Assembly: GCF_000235565.1 (NCBI RefSeq)
Contig: NC_017527.1
Coordinates: 496,001-560,000 of the forward strand
Direction of reading: 5' to 3'
Length of the DNA: 64,000 nt
Source of the DNA: Methanothrix harundinacea 6Ac
Lineage (GTDB): Archaea > Halobacteriota > Methanosarcinia > Methanotrichales > Methanotrichaceae
Both the position numbers and the translations under genes were made by a program. The notes under the pieces were generated by a model. It ran no database searches and was not told the DNA's origin. It was given only the letters and a program-made list of their open reading frames with translations. This document shows, piece by piece, positions 33,771 to 39,852 of the stretch; position 1 is the stretch's first letter; each line of letters opens with the position of its first letter.

Positions 33771-34949
33771 GTGATGGACTTGAAGTCGATTATAGATGAG
33801 GCTCTTAACCGAGCTGAGCTCGAGGGCCGAACAGCTCCGCCGGGGGCCATGGAGAACGACGACGATCTCGAAGATCGGAGAGTTCGGACTAGGGCCAAGG
33901 AGAACGACGACGATCTGGCGGCGGTTCTGGAGCAGCTCACGACGGTCATTCGGGTAGTCGGCTGCGGCGGGGGCGGGTCCAACACCATCGAGCGGCTCGC
34001 CGAGACCGGGATCGAGGGGGCCGAGCTCTTCGCCATGAACACCGACGCCCAGCACCTTCTTCACATAAGCGCGGACCGGAGAGTCCTCATCGGCCGGAGG
34101 ACTACCCGGGGGCTGGGGGCGGGGAGCCTCCCCTCCATCGGGGAGGAGGCGGCGAGGGAGAGCATCGACGAGATCAGGGCGGCGGTGGAGGGGGCGGATA
34201 TGGTCTTCATCACCTGTGGCCTCGGCGGCGGGACCGGAACCGGAGCCGCTCCCGTGGTGGCGGAGGTGGCGAGGGAGATGGGAGCCCTCACCATATCGGT
34301 GGTGACCCTCCCCTTCGCCGCGGAGGGGGCGATAAGGATGGCCAATGCCGACGTGGGGCTGAAGCGGCTCCGCGATGTCTCAGACACCGTCATCGTCGTC
34401 CCCAACGACCGGCTCCTGGAGGTCGTCCCCGACCTACCCCTCCAGGCCGCCTTCAAGGTGGCAGACGAGGTATTGATGCGTTCGGTCAAGGGGATCACCG
34501 AGCTGATCACCAGGCCGGGGCTGATAAATCTGGACTTCGCCGACGTCAGGACGATCATGTCCAACGGTGGGGTGGCCATGATCGGCCTCGGAGAGGCCCA
34601 AGGGGAGATGAAGAGCAAGGACTCGGTGATAAAGGCCCTCAGAAGCCCCCTCCTGGACGTGGACATCTCGGGGGCGACGTCGGCCCTGGTCAACGTCGTC
34701 GGCGGCCCCAACATGACGATCTCCGACGCCGAGACGGTGGTGGAAGAGGTCTACGAGAGGATCAACCCGGAGGCGAGGATCATCTGGGGGGCTCAGATCG
34801 ACCCGAACCTCGAAAACGGCATCAGGACGATGTTGGTGGTCACCGGTGTATCGTCTCCTCAGATCCTGGGAAGAGAGGACTCAAAGGAGGGGCGGATCGT
34901 CTCCAAGCACGGGATAGACTTCCTCCGGAGAAGGAGGGCCGATATCTGA
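33771..34949 (+). CDS. ftsZ: Cell division protein FtsZ
   Basis: FtsZ (392 residues) is the tubulin-like GTPase that forms the division ring. After a variable N-terminal stretch (about 1-60), the nucleotide-binding motifs appear: [22 protein letters not shown], the tubulin signature [18 protein letters not shown], and [15 protein letters not shown] with the catalytic T7-loop region. The N-terminal extension contains a twice-repeated acidic segment ([10 protein letters not shown] and [10 protein letters not shown]). The GTG at 33771 is directly followed by an ATG, so either may start the protein. Confidence 0.96.
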
Positions 34950-35024: not shown

Positions 35025-35345
35025 TCAGCGGCCCGCCATGACGGGGGCGAGAGGATGGGGTGGGGTTGCGTCCTGATTCTTGCTTGCCTCCCCTCCCCCG
35101 GCGGATAGGACCTTCGGGACGTCTCCGTCCACCACCAGCTCCACCTTCTGCATATAAAGGAGGGTCTGGCCGACACAGGGGAACTCTTTGAAGGTGTCAG
35201 GGTGAATGTAAACGGTCTTGAGCTTATGACAGGCCTGGAGCATTCTGTAGATTTCCCGGTTTGTGGGGACGAAGGCGATTGCCAGCTCCTCGTCGGAGGG
35301 TAAAAGCCGCGCCAGGTCGAACTCCGAGTTCAAGATCCGCATCAT
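35025..35345 (-). CDS. DUF1699 family protein
   Basis: This 106-residue protein resembles DUF1699, a small family of methanogens: a hydrophobic strand ELAIAFVPTNREIYRMLQAC, then LKTVYIHPDTFKEF, and LLYMQKVELVVDGDV. Function unknown. The last 25 residues are low-complexity and probably disordered. It converges with ftsZ, and a GGTGA ribosome binding site precedes the ATG. Confidence 0.7.
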   Translation of the reverse strand: MMRILNSEFDLARLLPSDEELAIAFVPTNREIYRMLQACHKLKTVYIHPDTFKEFPCVGQTLLYMQKVELVVDGDVPKVLSAGGGEASKNQDATPPHPLAPVMAGR

Positions 35346-35804
35346 ATTCAGATCACCGCGAAGATCTCCATCAGAAAGCCCAAGGGTGGAAGCTCCATAC
35401 GCTGGCCAACTCTTTCTGATTTTACAATACTAGCAATGGTCCTATCGTATTTGAATCTGTTGATTAAAAATAACTGGGGATAGACCCCTCACTGAGCTGA
35501 AGGGCATGCTACAGCTTGGCATGATGGATCCCCCTTGGCGCAGGCTGGCTGCCCTCCATCTCGTAGACAAAAAAATAAGACGATATGAGGTCGGTACGGA
35601 TCGCGACGCCCCGCGGGGCAGTCTTCGACAAAGATGACCCTCGGAGGCTTCTCGGATGGGTAGCCCCCTCCTCGGAGCGGAACCATCGGAGAGCTTCCGT
35701 CCTGGCCGCAAATGATAACATGCACCATGTCAATCGATGGGGTTATAAGGTATAGCGATTGCTTAATAAATATTGTTATGGTGGCTGACGCTGGATGTGA
35801 GAAT
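35346..35804. other. Divergent intergenic region without a supported gene
   Basis: Open frames here have no ribosome binding site or recognisable protein. The region holds a TATA-like sequence for the DUF1699 gene on the minus strand (near 35445-35460) and one for the HTH gene on the plus strand (CTTAATAAATAT, near 35763-35774). Confidence 0.45.
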
Positions 35805-36104
35805 ATGGTGACTGATAAGGTGAAGCGAGAGCTTGAGATGCTAAAAAGGCACCTTATAATCCTGAAACACGTCATGGAGAATGAGCCGATCGGCATCCTC
35901 AAGCTGGCCGAAGAGACGGGGATCCCCAGCCACAAGGTCCGCTACTCCCTCCGGGTCTTGGAGCAGGAGGGGCTCATCGCCGCCTCCGCGCCAGGGGCCG
36001 TCACCACGGAGCGGACGGAGGCCTTCCTCCGAGATCTGGACATCGCCATCGACGGCCTGCAGGAGACGGTCCGGGGTCTCAAGGAGATAAAGCTCGAGCG
36101 GTAG
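35805..36104 (+). CDS. Winged-helix transcriptional regulator
   Basis: From the ATG at 35805 this encodes 99 residues: a helix-rich start (KRELEMLKRHLIILKHV), a winged HTH (PIGILKLAEETGIPSHKVRYSLRVLEQEGLI) and a C-terminal coiled helix (LDIAIDGLQETVRGL). It looks like a small archaeal MarR/ArsR-like regulator. The frame is open to 35712, but a TATA-like CTTAATAAATAT at 35763-35774 makes the shorter start more likely. It ends six bases before the ligase-like gene, so the two are probably one transcript. Confidence 0.75.
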   Translation: MVTDKVKRELEMLKRHLIILKHVMENEPIGILKLAEETGIPSHKVRYSLRVLEQEGLIAASAPGAVTTERTEAFLRDLDIAIDGLQETVRGLKEIKLER

Positions 36105-36110
36105 CTTCCG

Positions 36111-37409
36111 ATGCTCCCTTACCTAGAGATCGCAAGGGCTCTGGAGGCGGTCTCCAGAGAGGAACGGCGAGGGGCCAAGGCTGAAAGGTTGGCGGCTCTT
36201 ATCAAGCCTCTCCCCGCCGAGATGCTCCGCCCCACCGTCAGGCTCATCTCGGGCCGGCCCTGGCCCCCCTGGGAGCCCCGGGAGCTTGGGATCGGCCCCG
36301 AGACCCTGGATGCGGTCCTCGAAGAGATCTCCGGCCGGGTCCCCTCCTCCGAGGAGAGGGCGGCTGACCCCGGGGATCGGGCGGAGAGGATGGTCCGAGG
36401 CCGGTCTCAGAGGACCCTCGCGCCGTCGACGATGGACTCTCTGCACGTCTATGAATCTCTCCGCCAGATCTCGGCCCAGAGGGGACCGGGCTCCTTATCC
36501 CGGAGAAGAGCCATCCTCAAGGGCCTCCTTCTAGCCGCATCCCCCCTGGAGGCGAAGTACCTGGCCAGGGCTGTCCTGGGGAGGACGACGGCGGGGCTGG
36601 GCCCCTCGCTGATCTCGGCTGCGATAGGGAAGGCCTTCGACGTCGATTATTCCCTGGTGAAGAGGGCGTACTCCTACCTTCCGGATCTCGGGATGGTGGC
36701 CCTCAACGCCCGCCAGGGGGACATATACGATATGAGGCTCGCACCTTCTAATCCCGCGAGGATGATGTCGTTCCGACGGGTGAAGGACCCCCGGGAGTTG
36801 ATGGCGGGGGGAGGTCCGAGGGCCTACGTCGTCAGGTATGGGGGTCTGAGGGTCCAGGTCCACAAGTTCAACGACCGGGTGTACATCTATACCAGCCAGC
36901 TTCGAAATGTCACCCGGCCCCTTCGCGATCTGGCGGAGGAGGTGGCGATGGCCGGAGGAGAGTTCGTGATGGAGGGGGAGTTGATCCTGGTCCGAGGGGG
37001 AAGGATATCCCCGAGGTCGGAGACGGTGGGAAGGATCAACCTCCGGGGGAGGTCCCGGGGCGGGGCGATGCCGTCTCTCGCGGCGTCGGATCTTCTCTAC
37101 CTGAACGGCGGGGATCTCCTCCAGAGAGGCTATGAGGAGAGGAGGGGTCTCCTGGCCAAGGCTCTAAAGGGGGTGGAAGGAAGGCCCTTATCGTCCAGGA
37201 TATTCCTGGCGGAGGAGGAGGTGATTGGAGATGGCCAGAGGGCGGAGGAGTTCCTCCGACGGTCTCTGGATCGGGGGTTTGGTGGGGCATGGATCCGCGA
37301 TCTTGACGGATTGTACATCCCCGGCGAGATGAGTTCCGGGGACGCGGAGGTATCTCGGTTCCCGGCGGAAGGAAACTCCTCCTCCCAGGATCAGGAGCCC
37401 CACCGTTAA
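36111..37409 (+). CDS. ATP-dependent DNA ligase paralogue lacking the catalytic lysine
   Basis: The protein (432 residues) follows archaeal DNA ligase. It has an N-terminal DNA-binding domain (IARALEAVSREERRGAKAERL; EPRELGIGPETL; LLAASPLEAKYLARAVLG), then an adenylation-domain-like region. Motif I, normally K-x-D-G-x-R, reads RYGGLR at 242-247, so both the AMP-accepting Lys and the Asp are missing. Motif IV is SDLLYLNG (326-332). Motif V, normally with two Lys, reads GAWIRDLDGLY. It ends about 100 residues early, without the OB domain. It cannot ligate by the normal mechanism and may bind DNA or regulate. It is co-directional with the HTH gene, six bases apart. Confidence 0.85.
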   Translation: MLPYLEIARALEAVSREERRGAKAERLAALIKPLPAEMLRPTVRLISGRPWPPWEPRELGIGPETLDAVLEEISGRVPSSEERAADPGDRAERMVRGRSQRTLAPSTMDSLHVYESLRQISAQRGPGSLSRRRAILKGLLLAASPLEAKYLARAVLGRTTAGLGPSLISAAIGKAFDVDYSLVKRAYSYLPDLGMVALNARQGDIYDMRLAPSNPARMMSFRRVKDPRELMAGGGPRAYVVRYGGLRVQVHKFNDRVYIYTSQLRNVTRPLRDLAEEVAMAGGEFVMEGELILVRGGRISPRSETVGRINLRGRSRGGAMPSLAASDLLYLNGGDLLQRGYEERRGLLAKALKGVEGRPLSSRIFLAEEEVIGDGQRAEEFLRRSLDRGFGGAWIRDLDGLYIPGEMSSGDAEVSRFPAEGNSSSQDQEPHR

Positions 37410-37671: not shown

Positions 37672-39063
37672 ATGAATAGAGGATTCTTGGCGGTTTCGGC
37701 GGCGCTGCTGGTGGCCGCCATCACGTTATCGCCAGTGATGGCATATACCATCTGCAGCTCAGCAACTCCATCTTACACCATAGGATCGGGAACGCCCTAC
37801 CAGTACTCGATAGGATCAAAGGGCCTCCAGGCCTACTCGATCGGTTCCGGGAGCCCGTATCAGTACACATCGGGGTCCAGCGGCCTCCAGGCCTACTCGA
37901 TCGGTTCCGGGAGCCCGTATCAGTACACATCGGAGTCCAGCGGCCTCCAGGCCTACTCGATCGGTTCCGGGAGCCCGTATCAGTACACATCGGGGTCCAG
38001 CGGCCTCCAGGCCTACTCGATCAGTTCGGGGAGACCCTACCAGTACAGCGTAGCATCGGGAGCCCTCCAGGCCTACTCCATAGGGATGGGAGTTCCTGCG
38101 GCCAGTACCGGATCCTGTCCAATAGTGGCGCCGACCGTCGCGCCCAAAGTCGAGGTTCCGGTCGTCGCTGATACCGAGGCCGAGGATGTCGAGGTTCCGG
38201 TCGTCGCTGATACCGAGGCCGAGGATGTCGAGGTTCCGGTCGTCAATGATACCGAGGCCGAGGACGTCGAGGTTCCGGTCGTCAATGATACCGAGGCCGA
38301 GGATGTCGAGGTTCCGGTTGTCGCTGATACCGAGGCCGAGGATGTCGAGGTTCCGGTTGTCGCTGATACCGAGGCCGAGGATGTCGAGGTTCCGATCGTC
38401 GCTGATACCGAGGCCGAGGATGTCGAGGTTCCGGTCGTCGCTGATACCGAGGCTGAGGATGTCGAGGTTCCAGTTGTCAATGATACCGAGGCCGAGGATG
38501 TCGAGGTTCCGGTTGTCAATGATACTGAGGCCGAGGATGTCGAGGAGCCGGTCGTCGCTGAGACTGAGCCCGCCCTCCTGAACATCGTCGAGACGGCAGT
38601 CGGGGCTGGCAATCTGAACGACCTCGTCACCGCGGTGGAGGCGGCAGGTCTTGCAGACTTCCTTGCAGGCGAGGGGCCCTTCACGGTCTTCGCCCCCACG
38701 GATGAAGCCTTCGGACTGTTGGGTGAGATCGACCTCAACGACACCGATGCTCTGACCGAGATCCTCACCTACCACGTAGCTGATGGCGCTCTGATGGCCG
38801 CGGATGTCGTGAACATGACCTCCATTGAGACCCTCGAAGGCTCTAGCCTCACCATCGAGGTCACTGACGAGGGGGCCTTTGTCAATGGCGCCAGGATCGT
38901 CCAGACGGACGTGGTCTGCAGCAACGGAGTCGTCCACATAATAGACGCAGTCTTGATGCCACCCGCTGAGGCGGAGGTGCCTCCTGAGGAAGTTCCTCCC
39001 GTAGAAATGCCTCCGGCAGAGGTGGAGGAGCCTCCCGCGGAGGTCCCTCCCGTGGTAACTTGA
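37672..39063 (+). CDS. Secreted fasciclin-domain protein with two repeat arrays
   Basis: The protein (463 residues) has a signal peptide (1-24). Next come five 20-residue repeats (34-133; consensus AYSIGSGSPYQYTSGSSGLQ) and ten 13-residue acidic repeats (160-289; consensus VEVPVVADTEAED, with A or N at the seventh position). A FAS1 domain follows (about 302-430; LNIVETAVGAGNLNDLVTAV, GPFTVFAPTDEAFGLL, VVCSNGVVHIIDAVLMPP), then a Pro/Glu-rich tail. FAS1 domains mediate adhesion; the repeats look like stalk sequences. Repeat units are nearly identical at DNA level (60 bp and 39 bp), so the copy number probably varies between strains. There is no visible membrane anchor. Confidence 0.9.
   Translation: MNRGFLAVSAALLVAAITLSPVMAYTICSSATPSYTIGSGTPYQYSIGSKGLQAYSIGSGSPYQYTSGSSGLQAYSIGSGSPYQYTSESSGLQAYSIGSGSPYQYTSGSSGLQAYSISSGRPYQYSVASGALQAYSIGMGVPAASTGSCPIVAPTVAPKVEVPVVADTEAEDVEVPVVADTEAEDVEVPVVNDTEAEDVEVPVVNDTEAEDVEVPVVADTEAEDVEVPVVADTEAEDVEVPIVADTEAEDVEVPVVADTEAEDVEVPVVNDTEAEDVEVPVVNDTEAEDVEEPVVAETEPALLNIVETAVGAGNLNDLVTAVEAAGLADFLAGEGPFTVFAPTDEAFGLLGEIDLNDTDALTEILTYHVADGALMAADVVNMTSIETLEGSSLTIEVTDEGAFVNGARIVQTDVVCSNGVVHIIDAVLMPPAEAEVPPEEVPPVEMPPAEVEEPPAEVPPVVT
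37771..38070 (+). repeat. Five tandem 60-bp repeats inside the fasciclin gene
   Basis: Five in-frame 60-bp units encode the YSIGSGSPYQYTSGSSGLQ-type repeat. The three central units differ at only one or two bases, which indicates recent expansion; the outer units are more diverged. Confidence 0.9.
38149..38538 (+). repeat. Ten tandem 39-bp repeats inside the fasciclin gene
   Basis: Ten in-frame 39-bp units encode VEVPVV(A/N)DTEAED; an eleventh, degenerate unit follows. Ala and Asn variants occur in pairs (A A N N A A A A N N), which suggests duplication in blocks larger than one unit. Confidence 0.9.
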
Positions 39064-39370: not shown

Positions 39371-39664
39371 TCAGAGCCGCCCGTACATCTTGTGCGCCTT
39401 CTCAATGGTGGTGATGGCAAGGATCGAAACGACCTTCTCGTCTTCATATATCCGATAGAAGACGGTATAGGACCTTCCCACATGGAGGCGATATAGCTTC
39501 TTATGGCCAGCGAGATGGAGCGCCTTCCGGTCGCCCCTTTCGCCTCCAGGGAAGGGATCGTCGGAGAGAGCCAGACACCGATCTGCTACAAGCCGCCTGC
39601 TCTTCTCAGGCAGCGATCGGAGGAACTCAAGGGCCTTCTCTTCGATCAGCAGCTGGTAGGTCAA
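39371..39664 (-). CDS. RelE/ParE-type toxin
   Basis: This 97-residue protein has the RelE/ParE fold pattern: YQLLIEEKALEFLRSLPEKSRRLV, KALHLAGHKKLYRLHVGRSYTVFYRI and KVVSILAITTIEKAHKMYGRL. RelE members cleave mRNA in the ribosome, while ParE members act on gyrase; the basic residues (Lys, Arg, His) in the strand LHVGRSYTVFYRI favour the RelE type. It overlaps the antitoxin gene by four bases (ATGA), the classic arrangement. Confidence 0.87.
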   Translation of the reverse strand: MTYQLLIEEKALEFLRSLPEKSRRLVADRCLALSDDPFPGGERGDRKALHLAGHKKLYRLHVGRSYTVFYRIYEDEKVVSILAITTIEKAHKMYGRL

Positions 39665-39852
39665 AATCGAAGCTCCACGAAGTTCCCCTCCCTCTCGATC
39701 CTCTCCATATCCAGGAAGAGCCGCCGCTTCTTCTCGTGCTCGATCATCTCCGCCAGAAGGCCCGCGAAGGTCTCTCCCGGCCTCTTGAGGTCTGATAGAT
39801 CCTCCCAGACCTCCCTGGTCACCGGTATCCTCTTATCGGCCGCTTCGCCCAT
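39661..39852 (-). CDS. Antitoxin of the RelE-like toxin
   Basis: This 63-residue protein has an N-terminal ribbon-like segment (KRIPVTREVWEDLSDLKRPGETFAGLL) and a helical toxin-binding tail (EKKRRLFLDMERIEREGNFVEL). It is of the short archaeal antitoxin type with a VapB-like N terminus. It is translated first and overlaps the toxin gene, so both are coupled; it probably represses its own promoter. Confidence 0.83.
   Translation of the reverse strand: MGEAADKRIPVTREVWEDLSDLKRPGETFAGLLAEMIEHEKKRRLFLDMERIEREGNFVELRF

Follow-up and report, generated by a model that had tools for sequence, protein, structure and literature searches.

Archaeal replicative DNA ligases of the LigA/Lig1 type, such as those in PDB entries 9dfa, 3rr5 and 2cfm, combine a DNA-binding domain (DBD; PF04675) with an adenylation domain (AdD; PF01068). 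In human Lig1, the DBD contacts the PCNA clamp through the peptide 390-QRLML-394, in which the Gln at +1 and the Met at +4 fill pockets (PMC9767926). Ligases can also contribute without catalysis, as a Lig4 devoid of catalytic activity was found to promote Lig3-mediated joining (PMC9638927). The inactive human Lig4 (K273A) is, however, an engineered point mutant of a BRCT/XRCC4 ligase that aids another ligase, whereas the protein described below is a natural, family-wide non-catalytic ligase, and the likeness between the two is one of functional analogy only. A literature search, with subscription papers mostly outside its reach, found no conserved DNA-ligase pseudo-enzymes in archaea, and such proteins seem to be undescribed so far. 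Here, we analyze a candidate from the family Methanotrichaceae, for which an invariant Qxx[L/I] peptide, a linked radical-SAM gene and an upstream element of ~37 nt are new.

The window, i.e., the whole stretch of DNA under analysis, comprises 64,000 nucleotides of Methanothrix harundinacea 6Ac (NC_017527.1, positions 496,001 to 560,000), and all unprefixed coordinates refer to it. The gene of interest and its main parts are as follows.

36111..37409, + strand: catalytically dead ATP-dependent DNA ligase paralogue, 432 aa (Pfam, NCBIfam and PDB matches, motif tables, family-wide orthologues)
36111..36752, + strand: DBD, residues 1-214, the better-conserved half (PF04675 over residues 3-172; retention of canonical invariants)
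36834..36851, + strand: degenerate motif I, R242-Y-G-G-L-R247 in place of KxDGxR (motif tables)

A preliminary description of this locus had proposed a dead ligase with an intact frame and a recognizable DBD, separated by six bases from a winged-helix gene, and on these points the analysis agrees: 432 codons are open, the start lies six bases past the stop of the winged-helix gene (36102-36104), and the DBD matches Pfam DNA_ligase_A_N at 3.1e-26. The AdD matches DNA_ligase_A_M at 2.3e-18, with both Pfam scores over the curated gathering cut-offs. Because phmmer searches against the PDB align residues 4-407 with archaeal DNA ligases end to end and reach 2.6e-48, the resemblance is not due to chance. 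As read from these alignments, the protein is by descent a member of the ATP-dependent DNA ligase superfamily, with homologous DBD and AdD in the same order as in LigA/Lig1. An AlphaFold2 model of the paralogue based on seven input sequences was discarded (pLDDT 44.7, pTM 0.29).

The paralogue differs from archaeal LigA/Lig1 by the loss of motifs I, IV and V and by an OB domain that is either lost or devoid of catalytic residues. Motif I of the window protein reads RYGGLR, so that K and D are gone while G and R are retained, and the motif V lysines are replaced (K/K to E/S), both as initially described. In addition, motif IIIa has changed from F to S and motif IV from E/K to G/R; the motif III E is retained. 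To place these changes in context, we compared 37 aligned paralogues with 30 canonical ligases, with motif roles assigned after PMC4609770. The motif I Asp, the motif IV Glu and both motif V lysines are present in 30/30 canonical ligases vs 0/37 paralogues. The motif IV Lys occurs in one paralogue, the motif Ia Arg in two and the motif IIIa Phe in none, while the motif I Gly and Arg are kept in 36 and 35 of them, respectively.

Orthologues of the dead ligase were found in 49 of 50 Methanotrichaceae genomes, the lone genome without the paralogue being 56% complete. None was detected outside the family, neither in 238 genomes of the class nor in 295 genomes drawn from the phylum. Among the class genomes, scores drop from 397 bits for the lowest Methanotrichaceae member to 287 bits; the top score beyond the family among the phylum genomes is 305 bits, and all 20 best translated phylum matches (L142-L161) carry an intact K[YF]DG. 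Relatives with an intact KxDG motif and decay confined to this genome, which would have spoken against the initial reading, were thus not found, as the catalytic set is absent from every aligned orthologue of this nearly ubiquitous family gene. Family-wide conservation also rules out local decay of the window copy. Arg242, whose conservation had been suggested as a check, is not a family trait: the motif I Lys position holds R in 19, K in 10, A in 6 and L in 1 of the 37 sequences.

The ten lysines at this position, together with a motif III acid that is often kept and the invariant AdD residues Q249, H251 and R344, would be compatible with an altered but still active chemistry that employs another nucleotidyl acceptor or a catalytic lysine in a shifted position. 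We regard this as improbable, since the same ten sequences are without the motif I Asp, the motif IV Glu and the motif V lysines, which no other member has either, motif I of the window protein itself starts with Arg, and most members have lost the OB domain together with motif VI. It is almost certain that the window protein is no DNA ligase.

In nearly all of the ~50 genomes, the paralogue has an open frame of about 385-546 codons. Seven aligned relatives of ~530-546 codons have a tail of OB length that lacks the motif V and VI residues; the remaining relatives end in shorter, ragged tails. The OB domain, initially reported as absent, is indeed missing from the window protein together with motif VI (RxDK), but its absence does not extend to the whole family. 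This distribution suggests that catalysis disappeared before the OB domain, which would then have been shed more than once. Repeated C-terminal shortening with divergent tails, an aberrant C-terminal half in one copy (L039) and a long stem branch in the tree could also be the marks of a pseudogene or slowly decaying relic. This explanation, already disfavoured, is highly improbable in view of the open frames, 24 invariant columns in the paralogue alignment and a dN/dS of 0.19-0.53.

These ratios, obtained for twelve fairly close pairs, lie well below 1 and show purifying selection on the paralogue. Canonical LigA from the same genomes yielded 0.11-0.28 in four pairs, each below its paralogue pair. 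Within the paralogue, the DBD shows a smaller dN/dS than the remaining sequence in 11/12 pairs (in one of them marginally), although the pairs share sequences and are not independent. Retention of canonical invariants follows the same gradient, with means falling from 0.55 (DBD) through 0.41 (AdD) to 0.08 (motif V plus OB). The paralogues possess invariants of their own (Y4, R44, L45, R131, G138, P191 and N310), of which Y4, R44, R131, G138, P191 and N310 further distinguish them from archaeal LigA/Lig1. Since Q249, H251, N310 and R344 stay invariant, the AdD is under selection as well. On the evidence of the alignment, the pattern is one of new constraint and not of decay, and the paralogue has almost certainly been retained by selection. 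The earlier proposal that the dead ligase is kept for a non-ligase role agrees with this constraint and with the family-wide absence of the catalytic set; nick sensing, PCNA competition and regulation, which it gave as examples, are candidate roles.

In the tree, the paralogues form one clade (100/100) outside the LigA clade, on a stem of 1.61 changes per column. A constraint joining them to Methanotrichaceae LigA costs 16 log units (p-AU 0.029), although the stem is long and the test shares any long-branch pull; the same test does not reject a grouping with the f2 ligases (p-AU 0.143). A recent duplication from LigA within the family is therefore disfavoured, with the stem length leaving room for a long-branch effect. 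The active ligase, whose location elsewhere in the genome had been suggested as a check, is an intact LigA (C2:1611184-1611765(-), 564-codon frame, KYDG) that carries the OB domain and the usual motif residues. It is the one further ligase domain over the cut-off in this genome. Because this working LigA is present, a second ligase would be unnecessary.

A possible function is suggested by a short peptide in the DBD.

36408..36419, + strand: Qxx[L/I] tetrapeptide, Q100-L103 (QRTL), matching in position the PCNA-interacting peptide of the DBD (alignment; human Lig1 in PMC9767926)

The Q at the clamp-contact position is present in 37/37 paralogues, followed at +4 by L in 28 and I in 9. As in PCNA-docked human Lig1 (PMC9767926), a Gln at +1 is thus combined with an aliphatic or hydrophobic residue at +4 at the matching DBD position; PCNA contact is reported for the human protein, whereas the match of the paralogue is one of sequence motif. 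The PIP-like Q is a feature shared with archaeal LigA/Lig1, while in the aligned Methanotrichaceae LigA (L046-L078) P or S stands in place of this residue, which other LigA of the class carry as the PCNA-contact Gln in the DBD loop. Short as it is, the invariant motif is suggestive and lends circumstantial support to PCNA binding. Active relatives share an invariant DBD loop, RIGEGxxR, which reads xxGxGP in the paralogues, with R160 kept in 7/37, E165 in 0/37 and R169 in 1/37. Because of this altered loop, DNA binding of the paralogue may be weakened or changed.

Our leading interpretation, to which we assign a probability of roughly 0.4, is that the paralogue acts as a non-catalytic pseudoenzyme that may bind DNA and PCNA and thereby modulate ligation or repair. 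It would derive from an archaeal ATP-dependent DNA ligase, have lost all three ligation steps and have become fixed in the ancestor of the Methanotrichaceae. Its DBD would dock on PCNA through the Qxx[L/I] peptide and, once docked, hold or mask nicks or repair intermediates; such occupancy could modulate the access of the working LigA or of other clamp clients. In most genera, a regulator and a radical-SAM enzyme would be co-expressed with the protein from a single unit. The altered RIGEGxxR loop, the shortness of the Qxx[L/I] match, the constraint on the AdD and the loss of the radical-SAM gene in the window's genus count against this reading.

The genomic neighborhood contains three further features upstream of the paralogue.

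33771..34949, + strand: ftsZ, conserved upstream neighbor of the winged-helix gene, listed as genomic context (TIGR00065, 5.6e-133)
35713..35749, + strand: near-invariant element TGATAACATGCACCATGTCAATCGATGGGGTTATAAG, ~37 nt, probable promoter with regulator site, upstream of the regulator-ligase pair (ungapped alignment of 24 loci)
35805..36104, + strand: winged-helix (HTH; CggR/MarR-like) regulator gene, 99 aa, ATG at 35805 (Pfam, structure model, Foldseek)

The HTH protein matches Pfam HTH_24 (1.8e-6) and CggR_N (1.4e-6), and its structure model (pLDDT 89.9) has CggR as best Foldseek match (1.4e-4); no named NCBIfam family scored above cut-off. It shares the fold of CggR/MarR-type winged-helix domains, including long N- and C-terminal helices, but differs from such proteins in being a stand-alone protein of 99 aa without a sugar-binding domain. 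The gene is adjacent to the paralogue in 31 of 37 aligned genomes, and ftsZ lies upstream in 30/31 of these loci. In the 30 loci measured besides the window, the gap is within -4 to +7 nt with a single exception. A small DUF1699 gene sits between ftsZ and the HTH gene in the window (35025-35345(-)), a placement found only in the window's genus. The pairing with a regulator, part of the preliminary description, does not define the paralogue: the HTH gene is present as a single copy in 70/80 sampled phylum genomes, over most of the phylum it occurs without a paralogue, and in genus g6 it stands behind ftsZ (4/4 loci) with the paralogue elsewhere in the genome. It is thus an old, phylum-wide regulator that the dead ligase joined, the pairing being secondary. 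Because the regulator is old, widespread and also present without the paralogue, the pairing says little about function.

The upstream element has the consensus TGNTARCATGYRCCATGTCAATCGATGGAATTATAAG; in 24 loci, which align without gaps, it precedes the HTH start by ~70-100 nt. Its core is present in 31/50 Methanotrichaceae genomes at <=3 mismatches, once each bar one extra weak match, and once only in the window's genome. The element is absent from g6, L097 and L098, in which only 12-24 nt separate ftsZ from the HTH start, and from L083, which has unrelated sequence upstream. An RNA family (no Rfam match), a regulon site (single genomic copy at up to 3 mismatches) and a strong palindrome (weak dyad symmetry, 79% over 4 pairs) were considered and rejected. 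The most economical reading is that the element represents the operon's own promoter, with a TATA box (TTATAA) and a regulator site, perhaps for the HTH protein itself.

One could imagine a sensor of DNA damage or nicks that ties DNA integrity to division: the dead ligase would bind breaks and control the winged-helix protein, which in turn would govern the operon to which it belongs and perhaps also the neighboring ftsZ. The tight linkage of the two genes, the conserved position of ftsZ and the near-invariant element with its TGNTA.RCA half-dyad fit such a sensor. We nevertheless consider it unlikely: the HTH gene occurs elsewhere in the phylum without a paralogue, e.g., in the order FAH-HTH-gltX in the eight Methanosarcinaceae loci examined, the two genes are apart in g6, and a physical interaction between their products is hypothetical.

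Downstream, a radical-SAM gene directly follows the dead ligase in 19 loci across most genera (L089-L107, e.g., L092:7277-8161(+)), often overlapping it. Its product matches PF04055 at 3e-15, with the PA0069/Rv2578c radical-SAM families as nearest NCBIfam relatives, below cut-off. The adjoining genes and this family assignment would suit an accessory repair factor, with the dead ligase delivering a radical-SAM (SplB-like) protein to lesions or clamps. Such a role appears rather unlikely, as the 9 genomes of the window's genus and both g5 genomes all lack the radical-SAM gene while retaining the dead ligase, and the match to spore photoproduct lyase is marginal (6e-4, one protein only). In g6, the gene is unlinked. 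Its absence from the window's genus rules out the radical-SAM protein as an obligate partner. In the window and in most genomes, a fasciclin-domain protein with many near-identical repeats (SIGSGSPYQYTSG, DTEAEDVEVPVV) is encoded 3' of the dead ligase (37672-39063(+)). Two short overlapping window frames (39371-39852(-)) resemble a RelE-type toxin and an antitoxin, by eye only.

The non-catalytic binder we favor could be extended to a pseudo-ligase that occupies nicks and the PCNA clamp in a regulatory capacity. It would be a natural competitor of the replicative ligase, or its chaperone, and would sit in an operon with an ancient regulator beside ftsZ, coordinating DNA integrity and division; in this full form, the proposal is speculative and rather improbable. 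It would be an error for annotation pipelines to credit Methanothrix with a second active ligase on account of the paralogue. If the paralogue does compete for or modulate nicks and the clamp, it would reveal a further level at which archaea control ligation, be it of Okazaki fragments or in repair.
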